Positions 5,134 through 16,357 of a stretch of DNA of 64,000 nt are shown here, in pieces. How positions within the stretch are numbered: the stretch's first letter is position 1; every line of letters starts with the position of its first letter. The stretch covers positions 1 through 64,000 of the IMG/VR virus record IMGVR_UViG_3300033996_000957, one strand, 5' to 3'. This stretch comes from a virus. The notes under the pieces were generated by a model, which worked only from the letters and a program-made list of their open reading frames with translations, was not told the origin of the DNA and did no database searches. Made by a program: the position numbers and the translations under genes.

Positions 5134-5206
5134 AATTTTGCCCGATTTGAGACTAAATAACTTAATCATAGACAATTTTACCAGATCTTAGACTAAATAA
5201 TTAAAT
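5131..5206. repeat. 36-bp tandem direct repeat, 40-bp period
   Basis: 5131-5166 and 5171-5206 share ACAATTTT, then CC-GAT, then AGACTAAATAA and a TTAAT-like end. A weaker relative (GGCAATTTTGTCAGATT) lies near 4838. The repeat ends just before the ATG at 5210, so it may also control that gene. Confidence 0.6.
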
Positions 5207-5209
5207 CAA

Positions 5210-5416
5210 ATGAAGCCAAATAATACCAATGACAGAGTAAATAATACACTTGAGTTTGTTTATTCGAATAAAAATATTACTAAGTGGCGAACAATTAATG
5301 CCATCAAAGAAGATAACGAGTACATCTATGGGTTTGATTTGGAGGATGATAATGATTACAAAGCCTTCAAGAAAAGCAAAATACTTGGCGGAAAAATTTT
5401 CTCTTTTCGTGGTTGA
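5210..5416 (+). CDS. Possible WYL-like small protein
   Basis: A 68-residue protein. The pattern LEFVYSNKNITKWRTI, then YIYGFDLEDDNDYKAFKKSKI resembles the ligand-binding core of WYL domains, including the short WYL_2 proteins of phages. This is a by-eye match and the aromatic triad is incomplete. A direct repeat abuts its start and the tRNA-Asn promoter overlaps its stop. Confidence 0.5.
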   Translation: MKPNNTNDRVNNTLEFVYSNKNITKWRTINAIKEDNEYIYGFDLEDDNDYKAFKKSKILGGKIFSFRG

Positions 5417-5449: not shown

Positions 5450-5524
5450 TCTAGGGTGGCGCAATGGTAGCGCGGCGCACTGTTAATGCGTTGGTTGGGG
5501 GTTCGAGTCCCTCCCCTAGAGCCA
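5450..5524 (+). tRNA. tRNA-Asn (anticodon GTT)
   Basis: The acceptor TCTAGGG pairs with CCCTAGA, the D stem is GCGC/GCGC and the anticodon loop CTGTTAA gives GTT. The T arm reads GGGGG-TTCGAGT-CCCTC. The discriminator is G and CCA is encoded at 5522-5524. It reads Asn codons AAC and AAT. Confidence 0.92.
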
Positions 5525-5544
5525 AAAAAACTTTCGAAAAAGGG

Positions 5545-5572
5545 TTGACGAAAGTGTAGGACGGTGTAAATT
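5545..5572 (+). promoter_or_regulatory. Promoter of the HNH gene
   Basis: TTGACG (5545-5550), 16-bp spacer, TAAATT (5567-5572). A 54-base leader precedes the ATG at 5627. Confidence 0.5.
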
Positions 5573-5626
5573 GTCCCTGTTCTTTAAAATAATGTAGAGC
5601 AGCTTATTTTTAGTGTAATATTATGT

Positions 5627-6031
5627 ATGACTAATTCATACATGAAAGATTACATGCGGCTTCGTTATCACAAAAGAATGAGCGAAGCTAGAAATAAATT
5701 AGGAGGAAAATGTATTAAATGTAATTCTATTGAAGATTTACAACTTGACCATATAAATCCAGAAACAAAAAATTTTACTATTGCCCATTTGTGGAATAGC
5801 AAAAAAGAAGTTTTTGATTTAGAAATTAGCAAATGTCAATTACTGTGCAAAAAATGTCACGAAGAAAAAACTTTGCTTGACATGGGTCGAGTTTCGGCTA
5901 AGATTACGCACGGTACATTATCAAGTTACAGATATTGTAAATGTAAGACATGCAAGAAGGCAAAATCTGAGTACATGAAAGCCTTCAGAAAAAAGAAAAA
6001 AGCGGTTGACAGTGAGGCTCAGACGGGTTAA
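5627..6031 (+). CDS. HNH endonuclease (probable homing type)
   Basis: A 134-residue protein. Cys29 and Cys32 (KCIKC), the catalytic-type LQLDHI at 39-44, and CQLLCKKCH at 70-78 form a zinc-stabilised HNH nuclease core. A basic tail carries a second Cys pair (CKCKTCKK). Free-standing HNH genes of this kind are typical intron-less homing endonucleases in phages. It sits between two tRNA genes with its own promoter, as expected for a mobile insertion into the tRNA cluster. The promoter for tRNA-Lys overlaps its stop codon. Confidence 0.85.
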   Translation: MTNSYMKDYMRLRYHKRMSEARNKLGGKCIKCNSIEDLQLDHINPETKNFTIAHLWNSKKEVFDLEISKCQLLCKKCHEEKTLLDMGRVSAKITHGTLSSYRYCKCKTCKKAKSEYMKAFRKKKKAVDSEAQTG

Positions 6032-6034
6032 GGT
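6006..6034 (+). promoter_or_regulatory. Promoter of the tRNA-Lys cluster
   Basis: TTGACA (6006-6011), 17-bp spacer, TAAGGT (6029-6034). It overlaps the last codons of the HNH gene and probably drives the run of tRNAs and RNA candidates from 6052 onward. Confidence 0.6.
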
Positions 6035-6051
6035 TTAAATGTTCTTTAGAT

Positions 6052-6127
6052 GCATCCATAGCTCAACGGTAGTAGCATCGGCCTTTTAAGCCGAGGGTTG
6101 TGAGTTCAAGTCTCACTGGATGCACCA
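6052..6127 (+). tRNA. tRNA-Lys (anticodon TTT)
   Basis: The acceptor GCATCCA pairs with TGGATGC, the anticodon stem is TCGGC/GCCGA and the loop CTTTTAA gives TTT. The T stem is GTGAG/CTCAC, the discriminator is A and CCA is encoded. The D stem has one mismatched pair. Confidence 0.9.
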
Positions 6128-6145
6128 TTTTCGTTCTTTATCATT

Positions 6146-6216
6146 TTGAGCGGCGGAGTCAGTTAGATCTAATGTGTGTTAGATTTAATTAAGGAAATAG
6201 TTTCCTTCCCGCTCAA
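6146..6216 (+). ncRNA. tRNA-sized three-way-junction RNA candidate A
   Basis: 71 bases. Closing stem TTGAGCGG (6146-6153) with CCGCTCAA (6209-6216). Hairpin 1 pairs TTAGATCTAA with TTAGATTTAA around TGTGTG. Hairpin 2 is AAGGAAA-TAG-TTTCCTT (6191-6207). It has no CCA and no D arm. It is the first of three similar tandem units between tRNA-Lys and tRNA-Met. Confidence 0.5.
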
Positions 6217-6223
6217 TTAATTT

Positions 6224-6295
6224 GAGTAAAGAAGTAGACTTTATCTTAGAGCGATATAAGATAAAATTCGAAGTAATTGGAATTACACTTTACTC
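6224..6295 (+). ncRNA. tRNA-sized three-way-junction RNA candidate B
   Basis: 72 bases. Closing stem GAGTAAAG (6224-6231) with CTTTACTC (6288-6295). Hairpin 1 is a perfect 9-bp stem, TTTATCTTA (6240-6248) with TAAGATAAA (6257-6265). Hairpin 2 is GTAAT-TGGA-ATTAC (6273-6286). It shares AGTAGA after the closing stem, and AATTGGAATT in hairpin 2, with candidate C. Confidence 0.55.
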
Positions 6296-6301
6296 TATTT
6301 T

Positions 6302-6372
6302 TAAGTAAGATAGTAGAAATCATTATGGATCACATCTTGATTTTGAAAGCAATTGGAATTGCATCTTACTTA
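6302..6372 (+). ncRNA. tRNA-sized three-way-junction RNA candidate C
   Basis: 71 bases. A perfect 10-bp closing stem, TAAGTAAGAT (6302-6311) with ATCTTACTTA (6363-6372). Hairpin 1 is AAATCA (6317-6322) with TGATTT (6338-6343), holding a small inner GAT/ATC pair. Hairpin 2 is GCAAT-TGGA-ATTGC (6349-6362). It ends 3 bases before tRNA-Met. Confidence 0.55.
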
Positions 6373-6375
6373 TTC

Positions 6376-6452
6376 GGGCCAGTAGCTCAATTGGTTAGAG
6401 CAGGGAACTCATAATTCCTTGGTTATCGGTTCAAGTCCGGTTTGGCCCACCA
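6376..6452 (+). tRNA. tRNA with anticodon CAT (Met, elongator-like)
   Basis: The acceptor GGGCCAG pairs with TTGGCCC, the D stem is GCTC/GAGC and the anticodon loop CTCATAA gives CAT. The discriminator is A and CCA is encoded. The first acceptor pair is G-C, so it is not an initiator type. A lysidine-modified Ile tRNA cannot be excluded from sequence alone. Confidence 0.88.
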
Positions 6453-6475
6453 GCTTTTGTTCTTTTAAATTTGAT

Positions 6476-6551
6476 GGTCTCGTAGCTCAACGGTTAGAGC
6501 AAGCGGCATATAACCGCTAGGCTGTGGGTTCAAATCCTACCGAGACTACCA
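6476..6551 (+). tRNA. tRNA-Ile (anticodon TAT), with unusual loop base 33
   Basis: The acceptor GGTCTCG pairs with CGAGACT, with a G-T first pair. The anticodon stem is AGCGG/CCGCT, the T arm GTGGG/CCTAC, the discriminator A, and CCA is encoded. The seven-base loop CATATAA places TAT at 34-36 but A instead of the near-universal T at position 33. The Ile call follows from loop geometry only. Confidence 0.75.
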
Positions 6552-6556
6552 GATAC

Positions 6557-6644
6557 GCCACGGTGGTGAAATGGCAGACACAAGAGACTTAAAATCTCTA
6601 GATCCTAACAGGTCGTGCCGGTTCAAGTCCGGCCCGTGGCACCA
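6557..6644 (+). tRNA. tRNA-Leu (anticodon TAA)
   Basis: A class II tRNA with a long variable arm. The acceptor GCCACGG pairs with CCGTGGC, the anticodon stem is AGAGA/TCTCT and the loop CTTAAAA gives TAA. The T arm is GCCGG/CCGGC, the discriminator A, and CCA is encoded. It reads TTA, a common codon in this AT-rich genome. Confidence 0.92.
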
Positions 6645-7099
6645 ATTTGCCAACAGGACTCAGCTTGATGCTTTGGACAGCTAACAAAGTCTGATAGAGA
6701 GGCTAGTGCAGAAAATCCTGTATAAACTGCACAAATACTTTTGCAGCAATGAGGACAGTCGTTCAAGCGAGACGTAGCTTGGGGTGCTGGAAGTTTCCGG
6801 TATATCAAGCGTCTGAGTGACCTGATCTGCGAACAAACAGTGCGCCCAAGGGATAATGTTTCAAGTCCCCTTACACTGCGACAACAATGGGTCGATTTTA
6901 GTTCTTTTATAATTTTATTCGATGTCAGCAAGCTCATGATGCTGAAGAAAGAGTTGATAATTGCAAGTATCAATGTCGTGGAGAGTGAGTGGGTTGATCT
7001 ACGCAAGATATCGTGTTGTAGATTATAAAAATACTGAAGATTTTCCCGTAAACCAACATCGAATATTTTCCTTGCTAGAAGATTCTAGTGAGATTTAAC
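6645..7099 (+). ncRNA. 455-base structured non-coding stretch between tRNA genes
   Basis: I find no convincing gene. The first 240 bases are richer in G and C than the surroundings and fold locally. GTGCAG (6706-6711) pairs with CTGCAC (6727-6732). CAAGC (6764-6768) pairs with GCTTG (6777-6781), and its loop bases AGACG (6770-6774) match CGTCT (6810-6814), a possible pseudoknot. CAGTG (6838-6842) pairs with CACTG (6874-6878), enclosing AAGGGA/TCCCCTT. It could be a large structured RNA. I could not match it to RNase P RNA, tmRNA or a group I intron. Confidence 0.4.
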
Positions 7100-7176
7100 G
7101 TCCTCGTAGCTCAGTTGGATAGAGCATCCGCCTTCTAAGCGGATGGTCGCAGGTTCAAATCCTGCCGAGGACGCCA
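7100..7176 (+). tRNA. tRNA-Arg (anticodon TCT)
   Basis: The acceptor GTCCTCG pairs with CGAGGAC, the D stem is GCTC/GAGC, the anticodon stem TCCGC/GCGGA, and the loop CTTCTAA gives TCT. The T arm is CGCAGG/CCTGCC-like, the discriminator G, and CCA is encoded. It reads AGA. Confidence 0.92.
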
Positions 7177-7199
7177 ACTTTAACAAACACTTAGTAAAT

Positions 7200-7364
7200 A
7201 TGCAAAAAGAGCAGTTATTCATTGTGCAGGAGTTCATTAATCGCCATGCCACTAAAAACTTGTGGAATATTAGTGACAAACTTTATGATCTAATCGGCGA
7301 AATAATTGAAATCGAAAAGAAATCAAATGCAACTCTACCCGCCGCACAGCATGATTCTCATTAA
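7200..7364 (+). CDS. Small hypothetical protein
   Basis: A 54-residue helical protein starting MQKEQLFIVQEFINRH. The frame remains open upstream into the tRNA-Arg gene, so the ATG at 7200, 24 bases after the tRNA, is the sensible start. It overlaps the next small gene by 14 bases. The function is unknown. Confidence 0.5.
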   Translation: MQKEQLFIVQEFINRHATKNLWNISDKLYDLIGEIIEIEKKSNATLPAAQHDSH

Positions 7365-7482
7365 GAAAGAGGGGGAAGAATATTCCCTATCGTATTTCCG
7401 GTATGAGGAGCTTGACATAGAGCAATTCGTCAAGTATGGTTTGGAGAGTTGGGAGATAGCTCAACTATTCGGTGGCAATTAA
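7351..7482 (+). CDS. Very small hypothetical protein
   Basis: A 43-residue frame starting MILIKKEGEEYSLSYFRYEE and ending GLESWEIAQLFGGN. Charged and aromatic residues are well mixed and codon use matches its neighbours, so it is likely real. It overlaps the preceding frame by 14 bases. Confidence 0.45.
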   Translation: MILIKKEGEEYSLSYFRYEELDIEQFVKYGLESWEIAQLFGGN

Positions 7483-7490
7483 CCCCTTTT

Positions 7491-7630
7491 AAATAAGTAG
7501 AAGTAAATTAAAGGTAAAGAGTATATTCTAGATTGTCTGCTAGAATTGGTCATGTTGTGCTGTGTTATTCGTACCTCATTGAAACCTGCGCCGTAACTCA
7601 TAAAATCGGGGCCTTCTACTTATTTTTTCT
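7491..7630 (+). ncRNA. Candidate small RNA closed by a 13-bp stem
   Basis: AAATAAGTAGAAG (7491-7503) pairs perfectly with CTTCTACTTATTT (7613-7625), and further T-rich sequence follows as in an intrinsic terminator. The 109-base interior includes the hairpin TTCTAG (7526-7531)/CTAGAA (7540-7545). It lies between small genes and has no ORF. The AGTAGA in the left arm also occurs in RNA candidates B and C. Confidence 0.5.
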
Positions 7631-7639
7631 TTCTCTTAT

Positions 7640-7780
7640 ATGGAAATCGAAACAAATCAATCTTACTTCTTTATCTTCTTTTTATTCTTGTTTGGATTGG
7701 TGATGATTAAGATTCCCGCAGGATTTGCTTTGTTGGTTATTTCTTTATTTTTTTTGTACAAAAAGCTCTCCGGTGACTAG
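7640..7780 (+). CDS. Small membrane protein
   Basis: A 46-residue frame starting MEIETNQSYFFIFFLFLFGL. It is almost entirely hydrophobic from residue 9 to 40 and ends in basic KKLSGD, giving one or two membrane passes. The function is unknown. It follows the candidate small RNA. Confidence 0.5.
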   Translation: MEIETNQSYFFIFFLFLFGLVMIKIPAGFALLVISLFFLYKKLSGD

Positions 7781-7790
7781 TATGTAGTGT

Positions 7791-8006
7791 ATGTCATTAA
7801 CTGATACACTAAATAATACTGCCGGTCGTTTCACTACCCTAGTTGTTGGTTCTAAGAAGGAGAACACCACGTTCTGCGCTCAGATCCTATCTGCATCTAA
7901 TAAGACTGTTTCTTTTTATGATGTGAATGCTGATGCTGATCGTCGTGTACCTGTCAGTAAGATCCTATCTGTTAAGTCTGGCAAGATTAAGTACGTTAAG
8001 GCGTAA
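7791..8006 (+). CDS. Small basic hypothetical protein
   Basis: A 71-residue protein (MSLTDTLNNTAGRFTTLVVG...) with alternating beta-like segments (TFCAQILS, KTVSFYDV, KILSVKSGKIKYVKA), possibly a small barrel. No family is recognised. It uses more favoured codons (CGT, GTT, TCT) than its neighbours, as in highly expressed genes. A strong terminator follows. Confidence 0.6.
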   Translation: MSLTDTLNNTAGRFTTLVVGSKKENTTFCAQILSASNKTVSFYDVNADADRRVPVSKILSVKSGKIKYVKA

Positions 8007-8024
8007 TAAGCCAAATAATAACAG

Positions 8025-8056
8025 CCCATTAGTTAAATATAACTAGTGGGTTTTTC
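8025..8056 (+). terminator. Rho-independent terminator
   Basis: CCCATTAGTTA (8025-8035) pairs with TAACTAGTGGG (8040-8050) around a short loop, followed by TTTTTCTTTT. Confidence 0.8.
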
Positions 8057-8062
8057 TTTTAC

Positions 8063-8136
8063 TGGGGATTTGCATAATGGTAGTGCAGGAGTCTTTGAAG
8101 CTCTTTGTGGTGGTTCGATTCCATCATCCCCAACCA
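8063..8136 (+). tRNA. tRNA-Gln (anticodon TTG)
   Basis: The acceptor TGGGGAT pairs with ATCCCCA, the D stem is GCAT/GTGC and the anticodon loop CTTTGAA gives TTG. The T stem is GGTGG/CCATC, the discriminator A, and CCA is encoded. It lies between two terminators. Confidence 0.9.
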
Positions 8137-8458: not shown

Positions 8459-9319
8459 ATGACCGAAATCAACGTCACCCCCGCCACTGCCACCACTCGC
8501 GCCGATAGCTTGCTCGACTACACGGTCGAGACTGTCCCGCTCCTCACCCCTGATGGCGAAGCCTCTGGTTGGCTCGCCAATCGCCGCACCGACAGCAAGC
8601 AGGTGCTTGGGGTTTGCACTGAACGCTACACTCTCGTTCAGAACCGCTCCCTGATGGATACTGTCGAAACCGCTTTCGCGGACAACAAGTTGGGCGAGTT
8701 CACCCGCAAGGAGTACTCCATGCGCGACGGTGCGCGGGTGTACGTCCAGTATGACTTCAAGAACCAACTGGTGAAGCTCCCCAAGGTTGGGGATGACCTT
8801 GGTTTGCGCCTGATCCTGAACAACTCCTTCGACCGCACCTGTCGCGTCTCTTTCGAGATGGGCATCCTTCGCCTCGTTTGCACCAACGGCCTGAAGACGC
8901 TTCAGGATGAGTTCAGCCTCACCCAGAAGCACTCCGACAAGCTCGACGTTTCCCGCCTTGTGGACGTTGTGGCTGGCGCGGTCGAGGGCTTCAAGGAAAG
9001 CACCACCGTTTTCAGCCGCTTGGCTGAACGCTCTATAAAGCAGGAGCAGGGCCACATTATCCTCGACAAGCTCACCAAGGCCAAGGTGATCGCTGACCGC
9101 AACGTGGATAAAATCAAGATCATCTGGAATGATCCGACGCACCGCGAGGACAAGAACCGCAGCCTCTGGAGCCTGTACAACGCCGTGACGCAGTTCACCT
9201 CCCATCAGGTCGAGCCTACCTCCTACGAACTGGCGCAACGCATCAACCGGGGCACCTTGGTCACCCTGAACAAGGCCAGCCTGATTGAGGCTGAGTTCAA
9301 GAAGCTCGCCAGCAACTAA
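8459..9319 (+). CDS. DUF932 family protein
   Basis: A 286-residue protein of the DUF932 (phage/plasmid-like) family. It shows VLGVCTERYTLVQNRSLMDTV near residue 48, LRLILNNSFD near 118 and RLVCTNGLKTL near 138. The family is common on phages and plasmids and its biochemical role is unknown. The gene is strikingly GC-rich compared with structural genes, with C or G at most third positions, suggesting a separate origin. It has its own promoter and terminator and is flanked by 39-bp dyads on both sides. Confidence 0.85.
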   Translation: MTEINVTPATATTRADSLLDYTVETVPLLTPDGEASGWLANRRTDSKQVLGVCTERYTLVQNRSLMDTVETAFADNKLGEFTRKEYSMRDGARVYVQYDFKNQLVKLPKVGDDLGLRLILNNSFDRTCRVSFEMGILRLVCTNGLKTLQDEFSLTQKHSDKLDVSRLVDVVAGAVEGFKESTTVFSRLAERSIKQEQGHIILDKLTKAKVIADRNVDKIKIIWNDPTHREDKNRSLWSLYNAVTQFTSHQVEPTSYELAQRINRGTLVTLNKASLIEAEFKKLASN

Positions 9320-9346
9320 CGCCAGATCGCCAAATACGGCCAGCGC

Positions 9347-9373
9347 GGGGCATCCTACGGGGTGCCCCTTTTT
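9347..9373 (+). terminator. Rho-independent terminator
   Basis: GGGGCA (9347-9352) pairs with TGCCCC (9363-9368), with extra G-rich pairing inside, followed by TTTTT. Confidence 0.75.
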
Positions 9374-9383
9374 GCGTCTCCAA

Positions 9384-9422
9384 AGACTTGCGCCATCCGG
9401 GGTGCCCACTTCTCGCAACTCT
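9384..9422 (+). repeat. 39-bp dyad, copy 2
   Basis: Arms AGACTTGC (one mismatch) and GCAACTCT with centre GGGGTGCCC. Seven bases separate it from the next -35 box. Confidence 0.9.
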
Positions 9423-9429
9423 TTTTCCT

Positions 9430-9457
9430 TTGATTTCCTCTGGGCATGAATTACTAT
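9430..9457 (+). promoter_or_regulatory. Promoter, leaderless
   Basis: TTGATT (9430-9435), 16-bp spacer, TACTAT (9452-9457), 7 bases, ATG 9465. Confidence 0.6.
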
Positions 9458-9464
9458 TTCCCCG

Positions 9465-9728
9465 ATGACAAAACGTAAAACGGTTAGCCTTGAATCAGTC
9501 AAACTGAAAGCCAATCACTTCTTTTGCACCAGCAAAAACGAAGCGATCATCCAGCGCAGAACTCTCCAGTTCTTCGTGACGGACCTGCTGATGGAAGCAA
9601 AGCAATACAAAGGTTTCAATTATTTACATAAACATCATGTCGAAGAAGGTTTGACATACGGTATCGAATGGGACGAAGCTGGCAAAGAGAAAACTTTCAA
9701 AGACGAATCACGAATCTTCTTTCACTAA
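9465..9728 (+). CDS. Conserved-looking small phage protein
   Basis: An 87-residue protein: MTKRKTVSLESVKLKANHFF, then RRTLQFFVTDLLMEAKQYKG and FNYLHKHHVEEGLTYGIEW. The motif layout is familiar from short phage proteins of unknown function. The -10 box is only 7 bases before the ATG, so its mRNA is probably leaderless. Two small genes follow in the same unit. Confidence 0.6.
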   Translation: MTKRKTVSLESVKLKANHFFCTSKNEAIIQRRTLQFFVTDLLMEAKQYKGFNYLHKHHVEEGLTYGIEWDEAGKEKTFKDESRIFFH

Positions 9729-9729
9729 T

Positions 9730-9825
9730 ATGCAATTAAATATGTACAAAAGGTTTTTGACTTATCTGATTCCTGCTGTTGTTTTAATTACTTTGGCTAT
9801 CTATTTATCAGAATTAAGTAAATAA
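9730..9825 (+). CDS. Single-pass membrane peptide
   Basis: A 31-residue frame starting MQLNMYKRFLTYLIPAVVLI with one membrane segment, residues 9-26, after a basic start. The ATG comes one base after the previous stop. It is short, so confidence is limited. Confidence 0.4.
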   Translation: MQLNMYKRFLTYLIPAVVLITLAIYLSELSK

Positions 9826-9837
9826 GAATATATTAAT

Positions 9838-10035
9838 ATGATAGTCTCTGTATTTGATATATCTTATGACATTGATGAAGAAGATGGTAAGGTAGAGAAC
9901 TTGCCAACTTCTTTTGAGTTTGAAATTGATAATTCTTTAATAATAATGGAAGGGGCTTTGGATGATGAATTAGCTGACATGATTAGTGATAGAACTGGTT
10001 GGTGTGTTAATAGTTTTAATTATAAAATACTTTAA
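9838..10035 (+). CDS. Small acidic conserved-looking phage protein
   Basis: A 65-residue acidic protein ending LADMISDRTGWCVNSFNYKI. The SDxTGxCVxxFxY ending occurs in many small phage proteins of unknown function. It is the last gene of its unit and is followed by a terminator and a dyad. Confidence 0.6.
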   Translation: MIVSVFDISYDIDEEDGKVENLPTSFEFEIDNSLIIMEGALDDELADMISDRTGWCVNSFNYKIL

Positions 10036-10085
10036 GTGCTTGTTTCTAAATAATAACAAGATTAAAGACAAATAAGCGAAATAAG

Positions 10086-10113
10086 CCCCGATTTGATAGA
10101 TCGGGGTTTATTG
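10086..10113 (+). terminator. Rho-independent terminator
   Basis: CCCCGAT (10086-10092) pairs with ATCGGGG (10100-10106), then TTTATTG. Confidence 0.75.
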
Positions 10114-10135
10114 TTATATAACTACATACTCATAG

Positions 10136-10174
10136 AGAGTTGCAGAAAATGGAGACCCCGAATCGCGCAACTCT
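10136..10174 (+). repeat. 39-bp dyad, copy 3
   Basis: Perfect arms AGAGTTGC/GCAACTCT with centre variant GGAGACCCC. Confidence 0.9.
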
Positions 10175-10197
10175 CAAAGAAAATCGCACCGAATCTG

Positions 10198-10226
10198 TTG
10201 ACACCGTTTGCCCTTTGCGCTAACCT
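10198..10226 (+). promoter_or_regulatory. Promoter, leaderless
   Basis: TTGACA (10198-10203), 17-bp spacer, TAACCT (10221-10226), 7 bases, ATG 10234. The -35 box lies 23 bases after the dyad. Confidence 0.65.
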
Positions 10227-10233
10227 TTCCACG

Positions 10234-10866
10234 ATGAATCTTGACCTTGCCCTTGACCTCGTTGGTGGACTCTCTGCGCCCTCAAAAATGCCGTGTCTTT
10301 CCTATTCGATCCCGGCAAAGTACTGCAAAACGGGCGGAAAGCTAGTGTCTATTAAGAATAGCGTTTGCTCTAAGTGTTATGCATTAAAGGGTTTCTATAA
10401 TATGCCCAATGTCAGAAACGCTTTACAAAAGCGATTTGACTCTATTAATAAACCCGAATGGGTTGAAGCAATGACTATTGCTATTGCTACAAAAGAAAAG
10501 AGTGGATTCTTTCGTTGGCATGATAGTGGTGATATTCAATCTGTAGAACATTTGACAAAGATTTGTCAGATCGCTATCAATCTTCCCCATATTAAATTCT
10601 GGTTGCCGACTAGGGAATATTCATTTGTTACTCAATACAAGAAACAATTTGGTGATATTCCTTCCAATCTCACTATTCGTCTTTCTTCCCTAATGATAAA
10701 TGGCAATGCGCCTAGTGGCATTGCTAAGATATTAGGATTAACGACTTCTGGTGTGTCAAAAGATAAAACATTCAATTGTCCTGCCTCCAATCAAGATAAT
10801 AAATGTCTCAATTGCCGCGCCTGTTGGGATAAATCAGTGACAAACGTTAGTTATAAATTACATTAA
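10234..10866 (+). CDS. GP88-like phage protein
   Basis: A 210-residue protein. CSKCYALKGFY near residue 47, FFRWHDSGDIQSVEHL near 91 and FWLPTREYSFV near 123, with a CxxCxxCW cluster near the end, match the phage family named after mycobacteriophage gp88. Its function is unknown, and the conserved Cys residues suggest a metal or Fe-S site. The frame stays open upstream through the dyad, but the promoter position fixes the start at 10234. The first ~110 bases are GC-rich and the rest AT-rich, suggesting a recombination joint inside the gene. Confidence 0.75.
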   Translation: MNLDLALDLVGGLSAPSKMPCLSYSIPAKYCKTGGKLVSIKNSVCSKCYALKGFYNMPNVRNALQKRFDSINKPEWVEAMTIAIATKEKSGFFRWHDSGDIQSVEHLTKICQIAINLPHIKFWLPTREYSFVTQYKKQFGDIPSNLTIRLSSLMINGNAPSGIAKILGLTTSGVSKDKTFNCPASNQDNKCLNCRACWDKSVTNVSYKLH

Positions 10867-10867
10867 A

Positions 10868-10939
10868 ATGCTTATACTACTATTGGTAGTATTGCTATTA
10901 ACAATAATAATAGAAGGAAACAAAAATGACACAAGATAA
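10868..10939 (+). CDS. Tiny hydrophobic peptide
   Basis: A 23-residue frame (MLILLLVVLLLTIIIEGNKN...) one base after the previous stop, overlapping the next gene by 14 bases. It could be a membrane peptide or merely a leader that couples translation. Confidence 0.3.
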   Translation: MLILLLVVLLLTIIIEGNKNDTR

Positions 10940-11120
10940 GCAAATAGCTAAGTTGCAAACTAAACTCAATAACCTAAAGGAGATGAAAAAGTCTGTAAGG
11001 TTATTGCTAAACAGACGCGAAAAGATTCGTGCTGAATTGACGAAGATTAGAAAAGACCTTAATAATATTCGTTTTAAAGTCTATAGGTTTACTAATAATA
11101 AAACCGAAAACATTAAATAA
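10926..11120 (+). CDS. Small coiled-coil protein
   Basis: A 64-residue, strongly basic protein, helical throughout, with leucine heptads (IAKLQTKLNNLKEMKK). A Shine-Dalgarno-like AGAAGGA precedes the ATG by 8 bases, unusual for this genome. The function is unknown. A strong terminator follows. Confidence 0.5.
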   Translation: MTQDKQIAKLQTKLNNLKEMKKSVRLLLNRREKIRAELTKIRKDLNNIRFKVYRFTNNKTENIK

Positions 11121-11146
11121 TAACAGATCAAATATCAAATAAAGCA

Positions 11147-11176
11147 CCCTCTAGTGTTTAACACTAGGGGGTTTTT
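11147..11176 (+). terminator. Rho-independent terminator
   Basis: CCCTCTAGTG (11147-11156) pairs with CACTAGGGGG (11162-11171), then TTTTT. Confidence 0.85.
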
Positions 11177-11192
11177 GTTTATAAACAACCAG

Positions 11193-11231
11193 AGAGTTGC
11201 AGGATTCCGGGTGCCCAACTCTCGCAACTCT
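11193..11231 (+). repeat. 39-bp dyad, copy 4 (between convergent units)
   Basis: Perfect arms, centre CGGGTGCCC. It lies between two convergent terminators, so no promoter follows on either side. This makes it look like a boundary element and not only an operator. Confidence 0.9.
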
Positions 11232-11234
11232 AAA

Positions 11235-11252
11235 GGGGGGCCGAAGCCCCCC
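11235..11252 (-). terminator. Rho-independent terminator (minus strand)
   Basis: GGGGGGC (11235-11241) pairs with GCCCCCC (11246-11252). On the minus strand the loop is TTCG and TTTAG follows. Confidence 0.75.
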
Positions 11253-11265
11253 AGTCGTTATTGTA

Positions 11266-12138
11266 TTACCAAGCTTTCCACATAGTCATCCAAGCTTTAC
11301 AAGCGGCAAGTGTGCCTGTACTAATACTATGCTTCTCACAGATCTCTTTATCACTAACGCGCTCTTTCAAATCCGCATAGACGGCGCTCAATTCGCGTTT
11401 ATTGAGAACCAATTTAGTCTTATTAACACCAGCCTTATTGTCTTTCTTTTCGTGAGTGATGAAGTCTTTAACCTGCAAAGAGCGATTTGTGATAACATTC
11501 ATGTCATTACTGACACAGATAGTCATCATGGGATTTTGATTTGACACATATTCAAACGACCAGACTAGTGACAAACCAAGCTCTATTGCCAGAGTCAACA
11601 GATAACATTGAATAGCGTATCCTTTGTTATATTCGTTAGCCGTATTGATAACAATCGGGCTAATGTTACTATCACACCGCCAGTGAGTATTGAAAGTAAA
11701 AATGAAAGTAACAGTTTTGTCTTTGGCTGTTTTAATCAAATCAAGGTTATGTTCTGTAGGGTTACCACAGAAGTCAAACCATGCGAAAATGTTCTTTGAT
11801 TTGAGAGATTTAACGCTATTGGCGTTTATGTATTCGTTTTTGTATGTAACGCCAGAGTGGTTAAGTATGTAGGCACTTGTCTTATTATGGGGAAAGATAG
11901 TAGCAATGGGGCGAAGATTGCTTTGATATTCTTGTGAGTTACATTCAAAGAGTGACATTTGAAGAGAATATACATTCCCGAATGTATCACCATAAGCTTT
12001 GTGATTTATCACATATTTCTCAAACTCCCACGAAGAGCCGGGGAGAGAAGTGACGGCAATGTCTGTTTTGTTTTGTGCAAAAGCGTCGTAGGCTTTGCAA
12101 ACGAGGTGGCGGATAGCGTTTTTAACTGTGTTATTCAT
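11266..12138 (-). CDS. Hypothetical protein with C-terminal HTH-like end
   Basis: A 290-residue protein of unrecognised family. The segment NIFAWFDFCGNPTEHNLDLI recalls the acidic loop region of some SAM-dependent methyltransferases, but I see no clear SAM-binding glycine motif and treat that as weak. The last 35 residues (SDKEICEKHSISTGTLAACK) look like a helix-turn-helix. The frame extends upstream to 12195, but the promoter with its -10 box 8 bases before 12138 sets the start. It forms a single-gene unit. Confidence 0.65.
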   Translation of the reverse strand: MNNTVKNAIRHLVCKAYDAFAQNKTDIAVTSLPGSSWEFEKYVINHKAYGDTFGNVYSLQMSLFECNSQEYQSNLRPIATIFPHNKTSAYILNHSGVTYKNEYINANSVKSLKSKNIFAWFDFCGNPTEHNLDLIKTAKDKTVTFIFTFNTHWRCDSNISPIVINTANEYNKGYAIQCYLLTLAIELGLSLVWSFEYVSNQNPMMTICVSNDMNVITNRSLQVKDFITHEKKDNKAGVNKTKLVLNKRELSAVYADLKERVSDKEICEKHSISTGTLAACKAWMTMWKAW

Positions 12139-12146
12139 ACGCGGAC

Positions 12147-12176
12147 ACAGTAGCACTGAGTGGGAAAAAGAGTCAA
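12147..12176 (-). promoter_or_regulatory. Promoter, leaderless (minus strand)
   Basis: On the minus strand: TTGACT, 18-bp spacer, TACTGT with a TGC extension before it, 8 bases, ATG at 12138. The -35 box is 6 bases from the dyad. Confidence 0.65.
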
Positions 12177-12182
12177 AAAAAA

Positions 12183-12221
12183 AGAGTTGCGTCATTCGGG
12201 GTGCCCAAAGTCTGCAACTCT
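12183..12221 (+). repeat. 39-bp dyad, copy 5
   Basis: Perfect arms, centre GGGGTGCCC. It lies between a minus-strand terminator and a minus-strand promoter, yet its orientation is the same as at plus-strand genes. Confidence 0.9.
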
Positions 12222-12241
12222 AAGACCCCACCGAAGTGGGG
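12222..12241 (-). terminator. Rho-independent terminator (minus strand)
   Basis: CCCCAC (12226-12231) pairs with GTGGGG (12236-12241) around CGAA. The U-run is short (TCTTA). Confidence 0.6.
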
Positions 12242-12249
12242 CGTGTTAT

Positions 12250-12444
12250 TTATTTAAAGTTTACAATACTACGCCCACTCTGTAGTAGTATAATGCAAAT
12301 CGGTGGAACTTTTGCGCCTGTATCTAAAAGAGCCTTTATGTAAGTACGCTCTGCAAGTTTTCCGCTTCTGGTATCGGGCTTTATACTATCACCCATCCAT
12401 TCTTTTAAGTTAGCTTGTATCTGTTGAAGTGTGAGGGATTTCAT
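12250..12444 (-). CDS. Small conserved-looking phage protein
   Basis: A 64-residue protein starting MKSLTLQQIQANLKEWMGD and ending PPICIILLQSGRSIVNF. Short phage proteins with DTRSGKLAERTYIKALL and a PPI...SGRSI ending are familiar but uncharacterised. The start at 12444 lies one base after the stop of the upstream gene. It is the last gene of a five-gene minus-strand operon. Confidence 0.6.
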   Translation of the reverse strand: MKSLTLQQIQANLKEWMGDSIKPDTRSGKLAERTYIKALLDTGAKVPPICIILLQSGRSIVNFK

Positions 12445-12445
12445 A

Positions 12446-12619
12446 TTATTCTTTAATTTCTTCACAACCAATGATTTCAGACTCTTTTACTTCGTTATCA
12501 ATAGTGTTAGCATCATCAAATTCTCCGCTTAAGACTAAATCTCTTGCTTCATCTTCTGATTTAGCTTCAATTTCTAAATAAGTATAAATCTCTTGGTATA
12601 GCGCGACTTTGTATTTCAT
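12446..12619 (-). CDS. Small acidic hypothetical protein
   Basis: A 57-residue acidic protein starting MKYKVALYQEIYTYLEIEAK and ending SEIIGCEEIKE. The layout of a short beta hairpin followed by SEDEARDLVLSGEF resembles small phage proteins of unknown role. It is separated by one base from the next gene and two from the previous one. Confidence 0.55.
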   Translation of the reverse strand: MKYKVALYQEIYTYLEIEAKSEDEARDLVLSGEFDDANTIDNEVKESEIIGCEEIKE

Positions 12620-12621
12620 AT

Positions 12622-12891
12622 TTATTTATTCTTAAACGATTCAGGATCTATAGTAGTACAAGTGAGGAAAGACAAATCGTATTCTGTTTCCAATTCATCT
12701 TCCACAGTGAGAAACAGTCCATCAAAGATTACTTCATTATTTAATGGAAAAAGCAAAACTCGCTCATTCTTTCTGTGCAATTTTAGAAAATCATCTTCAA
12801 TTTGAAAACTCGGAACTATTTCACAATCAGCAATACAAATCATGCTTGTATTATTTAACAAACCATGATCAATTAAGTTTTTGAGAGTCAT
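12622..12891 (-). CDS. Hypothetical protein
   Basis: An 89-residue acidic protein with no recognised family, no signal peptide and no membrane segment. It starts one base after the stop of the upstream gene at 12893, so it is translated from the same operon message. Confidence 0.5.
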   Translation of the reverse strand: MTLKNLIDHGLLNNTSMICIADCEIVPSFQIEDDFLKLHRKNERVLLFPLNNEVIFDGLFLTVEDELETEYDLSFLTCTTIDPESFKNK

Positions 12892-12892
12892 A

Positions 12893-13075
12893 TTATTTAT
12901 TCTTAAGGATTTCTTTTAGCGTTACAATCCTGATATAACTATAGTGTGCGTTTTTAGGAAAAGGGTTTGGGTGTTTAATCTTCCAAAGGTTTTGTAAGTA
13001 ATTGATTTCTGATTGGATTTCTTCTTTTGATTTATCAGTAGCCCAACATTCGGCAGCATAAACAGATTCTCTCAT
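12893..13075 (-). CDS. Small hypothetical protein
   Basis: A 60-residue protein starting MRESVYAAECWATDKSKEEI, helical in the first half. No family is recognised. It is the second gene of the operon headed by the DUF2958 gene, two bases after its stop. Confidence 0.5.
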   Translation of the reverse strand: MRESVYAAECWATDKSKEEIQSEINYLQNLWKIKHPNPFPKNAHYSYIRIVTLKEILKNK

Positions 13076-13077
13076 AA

Positions 13078-13383
13078 TTAAATAGCCGCGAGGGTTTCAA
13101 GCTCAAAGTAGTTCACGCCTTCCTTGGGTTGCCAGTACAAATCGCGCTCAATGGTCATTCCAAGCGGTCCCTTGATTGCTTCCAATTCTTCCACGGAAGC
13201 GATACTGCCCCATTCAACGCAACCCATGCCCAAGTCAGCGAACCCGTAAAGGATGCCACCTTCGATCCCAGTGATCAACCAAGTAGCGTCACTCCACGGA
13301 GTGAAAAGCTTGCAAATAGGGACCATGCCGTCAGAACCGGCCTTGTTGAGTTTTTCGGCGAGTTGTTTCGTCAGCAGTTTCAT
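13078..13383 (-). CDS. DUF2958 family protein
   Basis: A 101-residue protein: MKLLTKQLAEKLNKAG, then KLFTPWSDATWLITG, YGFADLGMGCVEWGSI and GPLGMTIERDLYW. This is the DUF2958 signature, a family found on plasmids, conjugative elements and phages with unknown function. The gene is GC-rich while the four genes behind it are AT-rich. The frame runs on through the dyad, but the leaderless promoter fixes the start at 13383. Confidence 0.85.
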   Translation of the reverse strand: MKLLTKQLAEKLNKAGSDGMVPICKLFTPWSDATWLITGIEGGILYGFADLGMGCVEWGSIASVEELEAIKGPLGMTIERDLYWQPKEGVNYFELETLAAI

Positions 13384-13390
13384 CGGGGAC

Positions 13391-13419
13391 AAGGTAATCA
13401 CAAGCGGCGCGAGTTTCAA
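13391..13419 (-). promoter_or_regulatory. Promoter of the DUF2958 operon, leaderless
   Basis: On the minus strand: TTGAAA, 17-bp spacer, TACCTT, 7 bases (GTCCCCG), ATG 13383. The -35 box is 6 bases from the dyad. Confidence 0.6.
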
Positions 13420-13425
13420 ACAAAA

Positions 13426-13464
13426 AGAGTTGCAGCATTCGGGGTGCCCAGAGTCTGCAAGTCT
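13426..13464 (+). repeat. 39-bp dyad, copy 6
   Basis: Arms AGAGTTGC and GCAAGTCT (one uncompensated mismatch), centre GGGGTGCCC. Confidence 0.9.
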
Positions 13465-13465
13465 C

Positions 13466-13489
13466 AAAGAAAAACCCGCCGAAGCGGGT
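13466..13489 (-). terminator. Rho-independent terminator (minus strand)
   Basis: CCCGC (13475-13479) pairs with GCGGG (13484-13488) around CGAA. On the minus strand a T-run interrupted by C follows. Confidence 0.7.
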
Positions 13490-13494
13490 GTGAT

Positions 13495-13683
13495 TTAATC
13501 TCTTTGTATAATAGATTTAAGAGCGTCTTTTCCTTTTTCTATTGAATCAATATCTAAATGATACAATTTATGCCAGTCTTCATGCTTTAATGCCATTAAC
13601 TCTTTGATACGGCGTTCTGCATTATTTAATGCCACACGAAGGTCTACAACTTCTTGTATTGTTATCTTTAGTTCGCCACTCAT
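13495..13683 (-). CDS. Small helical hypothetical protein
   Basis: A 62-residue, mostly helical protein (ITIQEVVDLRVALNNAERRI) of unknown function. It is the last gene of the lysozyme-headed minus-strand unit and overlaps the preceding gene by 4 bases. Confidence 0.5.
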   Translation of the reverse strand: MSGELKITIQEVVDLRVALNNAERRIKELMALKHEDWHKLYHLDIDSIEKGKDALKSIIQRD

Positions 13684-13961
13684 GCTGTTCTTAGGTTATT
13701 GTTAAATCTATAGTAATTACCAACGTTTTTGAGATAGTAATCGAAGTCTTTAATCAATTTGTAATGAACAGAGTATTTGTAATTCCTTTTCTTGGCTTCG
13801 TCAATGAAGATAGAAGCATCACAGTCTTCCTCTAAGTAAGCAAAGTCTCTTGTTCTATAACTATACTCTGATATTAAGATATCAATATTCCAGTCTTCAA
13901 GTAATTTATGAGGAACACGAAGCCAACCGTGGCCGGGGTCAGAAAGAAAAGTGAGTTCCAT
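13680..13961 (-). CDS. Conserved-looking phage protein (DPGHGWLxVP motif)
   Basis: A 93-residue protein starting MELTFLSDPGHGWLRVPHKL, then YSYRTRDFAYLEEDCDASIF. This combination is common in short phage and plasmid proteins of unknown function. The frame extends upstream by 22 codons, but those overlap the separate membrane peptide at 13966-14067, so I use the ATG at 13961. Confidence 0.65.
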   Translation of the reverse strand: MELTFLSDPGHGWLRVPHKLLEDWNIDILISEYSYRTRDFAYLEEDCDASIFIDEAKKRNYKYSVHYKLIKDFDYYLKNVGNYYRFNNNLRTA

Positions 13962-13965
13962 TTTA

Positions 13966-14067
13966 TTAAAAGATGATGTTGTAAACCACAGTAACACTAA
14001 CAACAGTAGCAATAGTGAGTGATACAATTACAGCATTTATAATTCTATCAAAAGTCTTGTTGCTCAT
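13966..14067 (-). CDS. Small single-pass membrane protein
   Basis: A 33-residue frame starting MSNKTFDRIINAVIVSLTIA with one membrane segment, residues 10-30. It lies 4 bases after the lysozyme-like gene, so it could assist export or lysis; that is a guess from position. Confidence 0.45.
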   Translation of the reverse strand: MSNKTFDRIINAVIVSLTIATVVSVTVVYNIIF

Positions 14068-14071
14068 ATTA

Positions 14072-14464
14072 TTACAGGTTCTTTTTAATGTTATTCCAGT
14101 ATTTATCAGTAGATGATTTATTCTTGCGCCAGTTGGGACCGGCGTTGTGCAATCTAGCTAACACTTCCCAGTCTCCATTGTCAAGAGCCTTTTTCTCGTA
14201 TCGGGCGAAATAAGCCTTGCAAACCATTTTTGCCACGTTGGGGTCAAATACGTCTTTATGGTTGGCTTTTACGCCAGAATCTTTGAAATAAGCAAATCGA
14301 ATTTGATAAATACCCAAAGCTTGTTCTCTTTTGTTGACGGCGTTTGGATTACCAGAAGCCTCGACTTTGCCAAGGGCTTTGAAAAATAGTTCTTCAGTGA
14401 CTTTCCCGTAGGTTGTCAAAGAGAATGAGCAAATAAGGGCAAACACAAGTGATTTGTTTTTCAT
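14072..14464 (-). CDS. Secreted lysozyme-like / lytic transglycosylase-like protein
   Basis: A 130-residue protein. The first 20 residues (MKNKSLVFALICSFSLTTYG) form a signal peptide or signal anchor. The mature part has GKVEASGNPNAVN with Glu35 as candidate catalytic acid, GIYQIRFAYFKD, and LARLHNAGPNW, the layout of small goose-type or SLT lysozymes. It should cut peptidoglycan in the periplasm, as a lysis enzyme or host-wall modifier. The frame continues upstream across the dyad, but the leaderless promoter sets the start at 14464. Confidence 0.75.
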   Translation of the reverse strand: MKNKSLVFALICSFSLTTYGKVTEELFFKALGKVEASGNPNAVNKREQALGIYQIRFAYFKDSGVKANHKDVFDPNVAKMVCKAYFARYEKKALDNGDWEVLARLHNAGPNWRKNKSSTDKYWNNIKKNL

Positions 14465-14472
14465 ACGGGGAA

Positions 14473-14500
14473 ACATTATCAGATTTAGGAAAACCGTCAA
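14473..14500 (-). promoter_or_regulatory. Promoter of the lysozyme unit, leaderless
   Basis: On the minus strand: TTGACG, 16-bp spacer, TAATGT, 8 bases, ATG 14464. The -35 box is 6 bases from the dyad. Confidence 0.6.
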
Positions 14501-14506
14501 AGGAAA

Positions 14507-14545
14507 AGAGTTGCAGGATTTGGGGTGGCGGATTGCTGCAAGTCT
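14507..14545 (+). repeat. 39-bp dyad, copy 7
   Basis: Arms AGAGTTGC and GCAAGTCT, with the most divergent centre, GGGGTGGCG. Confidence 0.85.
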
Positions 14546-14618
14546 CGGAAAGATTCGTGTCTGTTTCATGGGGGCTAAAACCTTCAAAGAGAATCACAAC
14601 AAACTCTTTGCAAAAAAC

Positions 14619-14722
14619 CCCGCCGCAGGATCTCCCTGCGTACCATTTGACACGAATCTAACCGAAAAAGCAGTGTTTCTAAAGGTTCAACTAACCCGCC
14701 GCAGGATCTCCCTGCGTACCAT
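14619..14722 (-). repeat. 28-bp direct repeat, two copies
   Basis: Exact copies at 14619-14646 and 14695-14722, 76 bases apart. On the minus strand each reads ATGGTACGCAGGGAGATC followed by CTGCGGCGGG, with a CGCAGG/CCTGCG hairpin; the downstream copy runs into GTTTTTT and may serve as the terminator of the 14744 gene. Confidence 0.75.
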
Positions 14723-14743
14723 GCCGCTTGCCTTAACCCGCCC

Positions 14744-14944
14744 TCACTTCGACTTCGAAGGGGGCAAAATTTGTTTGAAGTGAATCAGACCACCGGAGAG
14801 GTCACGAATCAACTCGCGCTCCACACTAGTGATCGTTTTCTTTCCCGTCAAGCGGTAAACAATGTTTGCGTCATTTTCATTTGCGATGTACTCGCGCACA
14901 TTGCCGTAGACTTCGCGGTTGTAAAACTCAATCGTTTTTTGCAT
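14744..14944 (-). CDS. Small conserved-looking phage protein
   Basis: A 66-residue protein starting MQKTIEFYNREVYGNVREYI, then IVYRLTGKKTITSVERELIR and GGLIHFKQILPPS. This pattern is known from short phage proteins of unknown function. It forms a single-gene unit with its own leaderless promoter. Codon use is GC-rich. Confidence 0.65.
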   Translation of the reverse strand: MQKTIEFYNREVYGNVREYIANENDANIVYRLTGKKTITSVERELIRDLSGGLIHFKQILPPSKSK

Positions 14945-14950
14945 GCCCAA

Positions 14951-14979
14951 ACCTTAGCCCAGACCAGCCCACTCGTCAA
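14951..14979 (-). promoter_or_regulatory. Promoter, leaderless (minus strand)
   Basis: On the minus strand: TTGACG, 17-bp spacer, TAAGGT, 6 bases, ATG 14944. The -35 box is 17 bases from the dyad. Confidence 0.65.
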
Positions 14980-14996
14980 AAGAAAAAAGAAAAAAA

Positions 14997-15035
14997 AGAG
15001 TTGCGAGCTTCGGGGTGCCCGAAACGCGCAACTGT
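14997..15035 (+). repeat. 39-bp dyad, copy 8
   Basis: Arms AGAGTTGC and GCAACTGT, centre GGGGTGCCC. Confidence 0.9.
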
Positions 15036-15055
15036 AAAGCCCCGCCGTAGCGGGG
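15036..15055 (-). terminator. Rho-independent terminator (minus strand)
   Basis: CCCCGC (15040-15045) pairs with GCGGGG (15050-15055) around CGTA; on the minus strand CTTTACAG follows. Confidence 0.65.
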
Positions 15056-15063
15056 TGAATTTT

Positions 15064-15339
15064 TCAGTAAATTCTCTTGACTTTATCGTATTCCGTTCTG
15101 TCCAAGAGGTCTTGAGCCTCTTTGGCGACTTGCTCCCGGTACTCTGGGCGGTAGTGTGTCAAGTACTTTATTTCGAACAAGTACATTTTCAGAGCCACGC
15201 GCATTTCGCGGAAGGATTTCGCGTCAACCACAACCAAAGGCTCAGAGTCTTGACGAGAAGGCTCAAACTCTTCGGGGGTCTGCGCGATGAGGTCGCGGAG
15301 GTCGCTGGCGGTATCGATGCTGTCGTGTTGTGTTTTCAT
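15064..15339 (-). CDS. Hypothetical protein
   Basis: A 91-residue soluble protein. The N-terminal 35 residues are acidic and probably flexible, and the rest is helical (SFREMRVALKMYLFEIKYL). No family is recognised. GC-rich codon use and a single-gene promoter-terminator unit match the neighbouring cassettes. Confidence 0.6.
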   Translation of the reverse strand: MKTQHDSIDTASDLRDLIAQTPEEFEPSRQDSEPLVVVDAKSFREMRVALKMYLFEIKYLTHYRPEYREQVAKEAQDLLDRTEYDKVKRIY

Positions 15340-15349
15340 TACGGAGAAG

Positions 15350-15378
15350 AGTCTCGCACGGGCCGTGACTCTTGTAAA
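15350..15378 (-). promoter_or_regulatory. Promoter, near-leaderless (minus strand)
   Basis: On the minus strand: TTTACA, 17-bp spacer, GAGACT preceded by TGC, 10 bases, ATG 15339. The -10 box is weak. The -35 box is 16 bases from the dyad. Confidence 0.45.
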
Positions 15379-15394
15379 CAATTTTTCTCAAAAA

Positions 15395-15433
15395 AGAGTT
15401 GCTGGATTCGGGGTGCCCAAAAGTTGCAACTCT
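15395..15433 (+). repeat. 39-bp dyad, copy 9
   Basis: Perfect arms, centre GGGGTGCCC. Confidence 0.9.
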
Positions 15434-15459
15434 CAAAAAAAAGCCCCGCCGTAGCGGGG
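15434..15459 (-). terminator. Rho-independent terminator (minus strand)
   Basis: CCCCGC (15444-15449) pairs with GCGGGG (15454-15459). On the minus strand an eight-base T-run follows and touches the dyad. Confidence 0.8.
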
Positions 15460-15478
15460 TGATTTTCTTCTTGACTTT

Positions 15479-15775
15479 TCAATCCACGTTCAAGCGACCC
15501 TCTCTTTCGGCTTCTTCGGTCTCACGGGTCCACTCTTCGTAGCGGGAGAAGATCGCGGCTTGGATCTCCTTCTCCTCTGCCCAAGTGAAGCCTTCGCAAT
15601 CCCAAATGACTTCGGAGATGACGAGGAAGTCTGTGCCTCGGATCTCGTCAGGGTTGCACTCGTAATCCCACTCAAAGCCCACAAGGACTTCGATCTCGGA
15701 AACGTCGTACCGATCTTCAAGTTGGATCTCAAAGGTGAACTTGCGTTGGATGCTTGCGCTAATTTCTGGTTTCAT
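15479..15775 (-). CDS. Acidic hypothetical protein
   Basis: A 98-residue, strongly acidic protein (many Glu and Asp) with beta-like N-terminal strands, FTFEIQLEDRYDVSEIEVLV. The high negative charge would suit a DNA mimic, but nothing else supports that. It has its own promoter and GC-rich codons. Confidence 0.6.
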   Translation of the reverse strand: MKPEISASIQRKFTFEIQLEDRYDVSEIEVLVGFEWDYECNPDEIRGTDFLVISEVIWDCEGFTWAEEKEIQAAIFSRYEEWTRETEEAEREGRLNVD

Positions 15776-15782
15776 CGTGCCT

Positions 15783-15810
15783 ACGGTATCAGATTGGTCG
15801 AGGTTGTCAA
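15783..15810 (-). promoter_or_regulatory. Promoter, leaderless (minus strand)
   Basis: On the minus strand: TTGACA, 16-bp spacer, TACCGT, 7 bases, ATG 15775. It is divergent from the promoter at 15979, and the nearest dyad is 121 bases away. Confidence 0.65.
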
Positions 15811-15931
15811 AAAATTATTTCAAATAATCGCAAATATTGCCAGACCTCCCCCAAATAGACCAAAGGGCGGCTTCGCCCTCAGAGTCAACACAAATCGCTC
15901 ACCAAATGAAGAAAAAAAAGTCAAGCCCAAA

Positions 15932-15970
15932 AGAGTTGCAGAATTCGGGGAGCCTAACTCTTGCAACTCT
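15932..15970 (+). repeat. 39-bp dyad, copy 10 (between divergent units)
   Basis: Perfect arms, centre variant GGGGAGCCT. The transcription direction switches here. Confidence 0.9.
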
Positions 15971-15978
15971 CAAATCTA

Positions 15979-16006
15979 TTGACTTTTTCATTCTTTTTGC
16001 TATCTT
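15979..16006 (+). promoter_or_regulatory. Promoter, leaderless
   Basis: TTGACT (15979-15984), 16-bp spacer, TATCTT (16001-16006), 8 bases, ATG 16015. Eight bases separate it from the dyad. Confidence 0.7.
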
Positions 16007-16014
16007 GGTGCCCT

Positions 16015-16233: not shown

Positions 16234-16260
16234 ATACTATTTAAATAAATAACAGATAAG

Positions 16261-16293
16261 CCCCCGTTATACTACTATAGCGGGGGTTTTTTT
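16261..16293 (+). terminator. Rho-independent terminator
   Basis: CCCCCGTTATA (16261-16271) pairs with TATAGCGGGGG (16276-16286), then seven T. Confidence 0.9.
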
Positions 16294-16301
16294 ATACAAA
16301 A

Positions 16302-16340: not shown

Positions 16341-16357
16341 CTTTGTGCGATTTTCTC

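Follow-up and report, generated by a model that had tools for sequence, protein, structure and literature searches.

The tRNA array and the three units between tRNA-Lys and tRNA-Met

The window studied here, a stretch of 64,000 nucleotides, is part of a virus record of 79.4 kb and holds a tRNA array at 5450-8136 on the + strand, in which ARAGORN identifies genes for tRNA-Asn, Lys, Met, Ile, Leu, Arg and Gln. Three units, here designated A, B and C, lie on the tRNA strand between the end of tRNA-Lys and the start of tRNA-Met, and the features of this part of the array are as follows.

5627-6031, + strand: HNH endonuclease open reading frame between tRNA-Asn and tRNA-Lys, a homing-type neighbour (PHROG 4234, E 1.2e-30)
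6052-6127, + strand: tRNA-Lys(UUU), the upstream neighbour, with encoded CCA (ARAGORN; Rfam RF00005, 66.8 bits)
6128-6145, + strand: linker TTTTCGTTCTTTATCATT, preceding RNA A
6146-6216, + strand: RNA A, 71 nt; P1 6146-6153/6209-6216, P2 6163-6173/6178-6188, P3 6193-6197/6201-6205
6224-6295, + strand: RNA B, 72 nt; P1 6224-6231/6288-6295, P2 6237-6248/6257-6269, P3 6273-6277/6282-6286; unpaired AGUA 6233-6236 and GAA 6270-6272, P3 loop UGGA
6302-6372, + strand: RNA C, 71 nt; P1 6302-6311/6363-6372, P2 6316-6322/6338-6344 plus 3 inner base pairs, P3 6349-6353/6358-6362; unpaired AGUA 6312-6315 and GAA 6345-6347
6376-6452, + strand: tRNA-Met(CAU), starting 3 nt past RNA C (ARAGORN)

Each unit consists of a closing stem of 8-10 bp, one long hairpin and one short hairpin; the spacings are 7 and 6 nt, and CCA is not encoded at 6217, 6296 or 6373, the positions 3' of A, B and C. 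An initial annotation of the sequence had described three units with these positions, lengths, spacings, stems and hairpins, none of them encoding CCA, and all of this is present. No credible open reading frame extends across A to C, the longest on the tRNA strand being a 45-aa TTG frame that runs into tRNA-Met; the units are not coding, and their substitutions are explained by the pairing pattern.

Folding was scored against 200 dinucleotide shuffles. The whole three-unit stretch reached a z-score of -4.55, and 0 of 200 shuffles folded equally well; the single units scored -5.5 (A), -3.4 (B) and -3.2 (C). When 1,598 windows of 74 nt were scanned coarsely across the entire stretch, A ranked 3rd, C 15th and B 139th. 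As the rank of B is ordinary, folding energy alone is weak evidence for this unit, and the decisive evidence for all three is comparative, namely copies in related arrays whose helices are kept by two-sided changes. Note that the same scan also returned several strongly folding windows at about 9300-20200, for example at 11106 (z -8.8) and 14986 (z -6.8), in a region of mostly short, overlapping open reading frames. Further downstream, two open reading frames of about 2,600 aa each (36633-44432 and 44437-52257) gave no Pfam match. The phage belongs to a group without a close isolate; compared with the phage records listed, its terminase reaches an identity of at most about 27%.

Comparative analysis of A and of the pair B and C

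A BLASTN search of 50,697 phage records found nothing credible for A to C in isolated phages; their relatives come from IMG/VR contigs, and the more distant arrays were reached via a pattern derived from the neighbouring element N2 described below. For RNA A, four close sequences and a manually specified structure served to build a covariance model (R1), which was searched over 0.94 Mb with E-values up to 1. It returned 11 matching places, all inside tRNA arrays, and recovered A in six contigs absent from the model (L452, L451, L444, L253, L443 and L447) with E-values from 1.6e-14 in L452 to 1.3e-4. Counted over the whole records and including the window's own copy, A is present in 11 contigs, each time in a tRNA array and nowhere else. 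Protein identity to the window is 59-61% for L443, L445 and L447 and 46% for L452, with a common gene order upstream of the array, and this low identity indicates that A has been kept over a long divergence. A search of bacterial and archaeal genomes with the A pattern gave two matches, both lacking the closing stem and judged to be chance.

Because MAFFT mis-registered the distant copies of A by one column, pairs were counted on model-guided alignments, which lean towards the model. In these, 95% of cells are paired, 7 pairs are changed on both sides and the covariation score is 0.318, compared with 0-2 pairs and a score of at most 0.114 in controls whose partners were slid by 1-3 columns; only a few independent events, in about three or four clades, underlie this covariation. 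Among the relatives, P1 shifts from GAGCGG/CCGCTC to AAGCAG/CTGCTT, and P2 has a rewritten sequence. In the helices, G-U cells outnumber A-C cells by 10 to 2, the bias that an RNA on the + strand would produce. In spite of the changed stems, unpaired letters are conserved, namely GAAGUCA, more generally (G)RAGUCA, in J12 (altered in L079) and AAYGUGUGUU at the apex of P2. Independent sequences of family A share one fold and show compensatory changes in it.

Judged by their sequences, B and C are paralogues and A is unrelated to them, so that the three tandem units of the initial annotation are real and in place, but do not form one family. B and C have AGTAGA and AATTGGAATT in common, as had been noted, and differ by G-C/A-U exchanges in P1 and one U-A/C-G exchange in P3. 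The model of the B/C family, R2, left out the copy in L444 and found it as the one distant copy of B, located in that contig's tRNA array (46 bits, E 7e-8). B has homologues in L079 and L444, and the B/C family occurs in 3 contigs. The P2 stem of the L444 copy is entirely different, while AGUA before it and GAA after it are retained, and its P3 reads AUAAU-UGGA-AUUAU versus GUAAU-UGGA-AUUAC, with the loop UGGA kept. Note that for this copy an alternative fold is predicted to be better than the three-way junction, at -13.5 versus -8.4 kcal/mol.

In the B/C alignment, which includes L444, 12 pairs are changed on both sides, 93.5% of cells are paired and the score is 0.464, against at most 0.178 with slid partners; across the slid controls of both families, two-sided pairs number 0-3. 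The covariation of B draws on two lineages, the two paralogues and the one distant copy, and the helices show a weak bias of 5 G-U versus 3 A-C. A further match of R2 in L197 (21.7 bits, E 0.16) does not lie in a tRNA array; it was rejected as chance and left out of the pair counts. Scanning for the exact motif AAGYAATTGGAATTRCA returned at least 119 stretches, of which only that in L079 was real among those inspected, the remainder being unrelated sequence without the AGTAGA context and the stems, and a gapped B/C pattern returned 101 stretches with a closing stem in L079 only. In family B/C, too, independent sequences share a fold and show compensatory changes in it. The initial annotation had suggested that structure is conserved while the stems differ, and had proposed a covariance-model search; this search, carried out across the contigs, yielded homologues that do covary.

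Further non-tRNA RNAs and turnover of the array

The array holds additional non-tRNA RNAs that were missing from the initial annotation. They are located between tRNA-Leu and tRNA-Arg, within 6649-7067:

6649-6722, + strand: N1, closing stem ACAGGA/UCCUGU; 2 differences in 86 nt relative to L444
6739-6895, + strand: N2, about 157 nt, after tRNA-Leu, with a possible pseudoknot GCCCA/UGGGY at its end
6916-7067, + strand: N3, about 150 nt, closing stem UAUUCGAUG/CAUCGAAUA

N2 is more widespread than A to C and absent from Rfam. It stands beside tRNAs in L202, L203, L204, L205, L206, L253, L443, L445, L447, L450, L451 and L452, carries an insertion in L444, and shows a G-C/U-A/C-G exchange in its stem, with 2 pairs bearing compensatory changes. 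The near-identity of N1 to its counterpart in L444, while N2 differs far more, suggests either recent transfer or strong constraint. One hairpin of N3 is rewritten with its pairing fully kept in L202 (about 5139-5286), where another cassette of about 165 nt with the closing stem UUUGGUUGA/UCAACCAAA lies directly before N3. Two more elements occur in the related arrays: E, of about 140 nt and with its own closing stem, between tRNA-Lys and A in L443, L447, L451 and L444, and D, of about 120 nt, which folds as a chain of hairpins, in L205, L206 and L452. The gap between tRNA-Leu and tRNA-Arg in L444 also contains, on the reverse strand, a short element with the closing stem UACUAAGUAAGU/ACUUACUUAGUA and a T-arm-like GCGGGTTCAAGTCCCC that resembles in kind the T-arm hairpin of phage T4 rnaC.

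The interval between tRNA-Lys and tRNA-Met thus differs from contig to contig. It holds A, B and C in the window and in L079/L204, A only in L202 and L203, D instead of A to C in L205 and L206, E and A in L443, L447 and L451, and E, A and B in L444; in L452, A and D follow an interrupted tRNA. B and C are missing from L203 with borders exactly at the element ends (CCGCTCA|TTCGGGCC where the window has B and C), and tRNA-Ile is missing from L202 just as cleanly, which indicates that the non-tRNA RNAs are gained and lost in the manner of tRNA genes. A, the pair B and C, D, E and the larger RNAs appear, vanish or replace one another at element borders. Linkers of the form TTTTNGTTCTTT(T)A, like that at 6128-6145, recur before many array elements, in the window and in L202, L203, L206 and L443-L452; a scan with the linker pattern CACCA..TTTTNGTTCTTT matched mostly unrelated sequence. 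Note that Lys-like and Leu-like tRNA genes in L444 (after the first tRNA-Met) and L451 (after tRNA-Glu) are interrupted near the anticodon by several hundred nucleotides; the interruptions are intron-like and gave no Rfam group I match at the gathering score.

A large share of the content of phage tRNA arrays is thus overlooked by tRNA finders. Tentatively, the array of this phage group may be viewed as an exchangeable island of many families of small RNAs (A, B/C, D, E, N1, N2, N3 and more), self-contained cassettes behind a common linker that would make up an RNA-only accessory arsenal directed at host defences or the translation machinery of the host.

Possible functions and comparison with known RNAs

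We consider it probable that A to C are genes for stable small RNAs that act in trans, constitute two new families and are released from the tRNA precursor, with counter-defence as the likeliest single function. They would be co-transcribed with the tRNAs of the array and set free by the tRNA-processing enzymes; if RNase P cut at the 5' end of tRNA-Met, C would retain only 3 extra nucleotides. The mature RNA of about 71 nt would form a compact three-way junction in which the closing stem joins the ends and provides stability. Its binding surface may comprise GAAGUCA and AAYGUGUGUU in A, and AGUA and GAA flanking P2 together with the loop UGGA in B and C, and through it the RNAs would act on a protein or RNP of the host or of the phage. 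We rank counter-defence first because the units are gained, lost and swapped within one locus like accessory genes. That the partner is a host factor and that the turnover reflects an arms race is a guess, and a counter-defence role as such is possible rather than probable. A homing endonuclease has been described to amplify a phage tRNA locus under pressure from a tRNA-cutting defence (PMC13096335); the array in the window also carries an HNH gene. All in all, the data suggest that A to C are small RNA tools of a set that is swapped from phage to phage.

A rival explanation, raised in the initial annotation in the form of tRNA mimics or decoys, is that the units imitate the L-shape of a tRNA, with P1 and P3 as acceptor and T arm and P2 as anticodon arm, and absorb host proteins that cut or bind tRNAs. 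Defences that cut tRNAs are known to be countered by phage tRNAs (PMC13096335), and the size of the units, their place in the array, and a P3 that follows P1 with 0-3 nt, as the T arm does, all fit. The likeness ends at size and topology: the closing stem has 8-10 bp instead of 7, a T-loop, a D arm and an encoded CCA are missing, the tRNA model RF00005 gives no match on A to C even at E 10, with no tRNA called there by ARAGORN, and the conserved letters of neither family resemble tRNA identity elements, so that we regard such mimicry as unlikely. The lack of any residual tRNA similarity, together with actively maintained pairing through compensatory evolution, speaks far more strongly against decayed tRNA genes, the other origin that had been proposed from size and location; this can practically be dismissed. 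No better than mimicry do we rate a role in cis, in which the units, as structured linkers, direct RNase cleavage or keep neighbouring tRNAs insulated, and are functionless after release. The units do abut tRNAs and linkers, their structure is kept, and two of the three are close tandem paralogues; however, other neighbours in related arrays are only 7-10 nt apart without such elements, the flanking tRNAs are intact in phages without B and C, unpaired letters are conserved, and two unrelated folds occupy one site.

The inverted repeats, the HNH genes in the locus and the precise gain and loss could also be read at the level of DNA, as hairpins that serve as recombination or homing sites or are remnants of mobile palindromes. 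DNA palindromes need no G-U pairs, yet A has 10 of these to 2 A-C (B/C only 5 to 3), non-palindromic junction letters are conserved and no copies exist elsewhere in the genome, which renders this explanation very unlikely. A three-way junction with GA-rich junction strands finally recalls self-cleaving ribozymes of hammerhead-like topology. Reading the sequences reveals neither the CUGANGA nor the cleavage-site triplet of the hammerhead core CUGANGA ... GAAA ... NUH, no Rfam ribozyme is matched and the junction letters differ between A and B/C; we give self-cleavage only the slimmest chance.

Among known RNAs, A to C match no Rfam family above the gathering score, GOLLD, ROOL and the ribozymes included, and a search at low threshold returned only tRNA and chance matches. 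The loop-E or bulged-G (sarcin-ricin) motif has as its consensus AGUA opposite GAA where a helix ends, and a 5'-AGUA-3' facing a 5'-GAA-3' is found at the base of P2 in 5 of 5 B/C sequences, where the motif may form; loop-E is a general building block rather than a family, placed in B and C at a three-way junction within a phage tRNA array. The RNAs of type III toxin-antitoxin systems (ToxI and its relatives) are likewise small structured RNAs in tandem, and those of the ToxI kind neutralise proteins; the units of A to C are about twice as long, have no Rfam match to this kind and no recognised toxin gene beside them. GOLLD and ROOL are structured RNAs of no known function that are often phage-encoded near tRNA islands (PMC12286853). 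In contrast to A to C, GOLLD is often longer than 800 nt; GOLLD and ROOL assemble into large nanocages.

The closest parallel, already drawn in the initial annotation, is with rnaC and rnaD of phage T4, two RNAs without a known function that have been tracked by RNA-seq and checked on a Northern blot (PMC9697503). Like A to C, they are non-tRNA RNAs in a phage tRNA cluster, on the same strand and abutting tRNAs; they lie a few nucleotides apart at the cluster end, next to tRNA-Arg, and the cluster contains a homing endonuclease gene. The parallel holds for position and not for descent. rnaC and rnaD measure 139 and 119 nt against 71-72 nt, unfiltered searches of the T4 cluster with R1 and R2 gave a best score of 14.1 bits outside both genes and at most 9.1 bits within them, and A to C are not homologous to either. 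rnaC (L464:909-1047) also carries near its 3' end a T-arm-like hairpin, CCGGG-UUCGAAU-CCCGG, which suggests a tRNA-related origin of rnaC and is missing from A to C. Unexplained RNAs in phage tRNA clusters are hence a kind already known, whereas families A and B/C and their patchwork turnover appear to be new, as searches of Rfam and of the literature, the latter mostly outside subscription journals, turned up neither. Since the T4 work, phage tRNA clusters have held non-tRNA RNAs without known function and few families for comparison; two compact families with covariation, conserved unpaired letters and natural presence/absence variants at one locus render structure, processing and partner binding testable.
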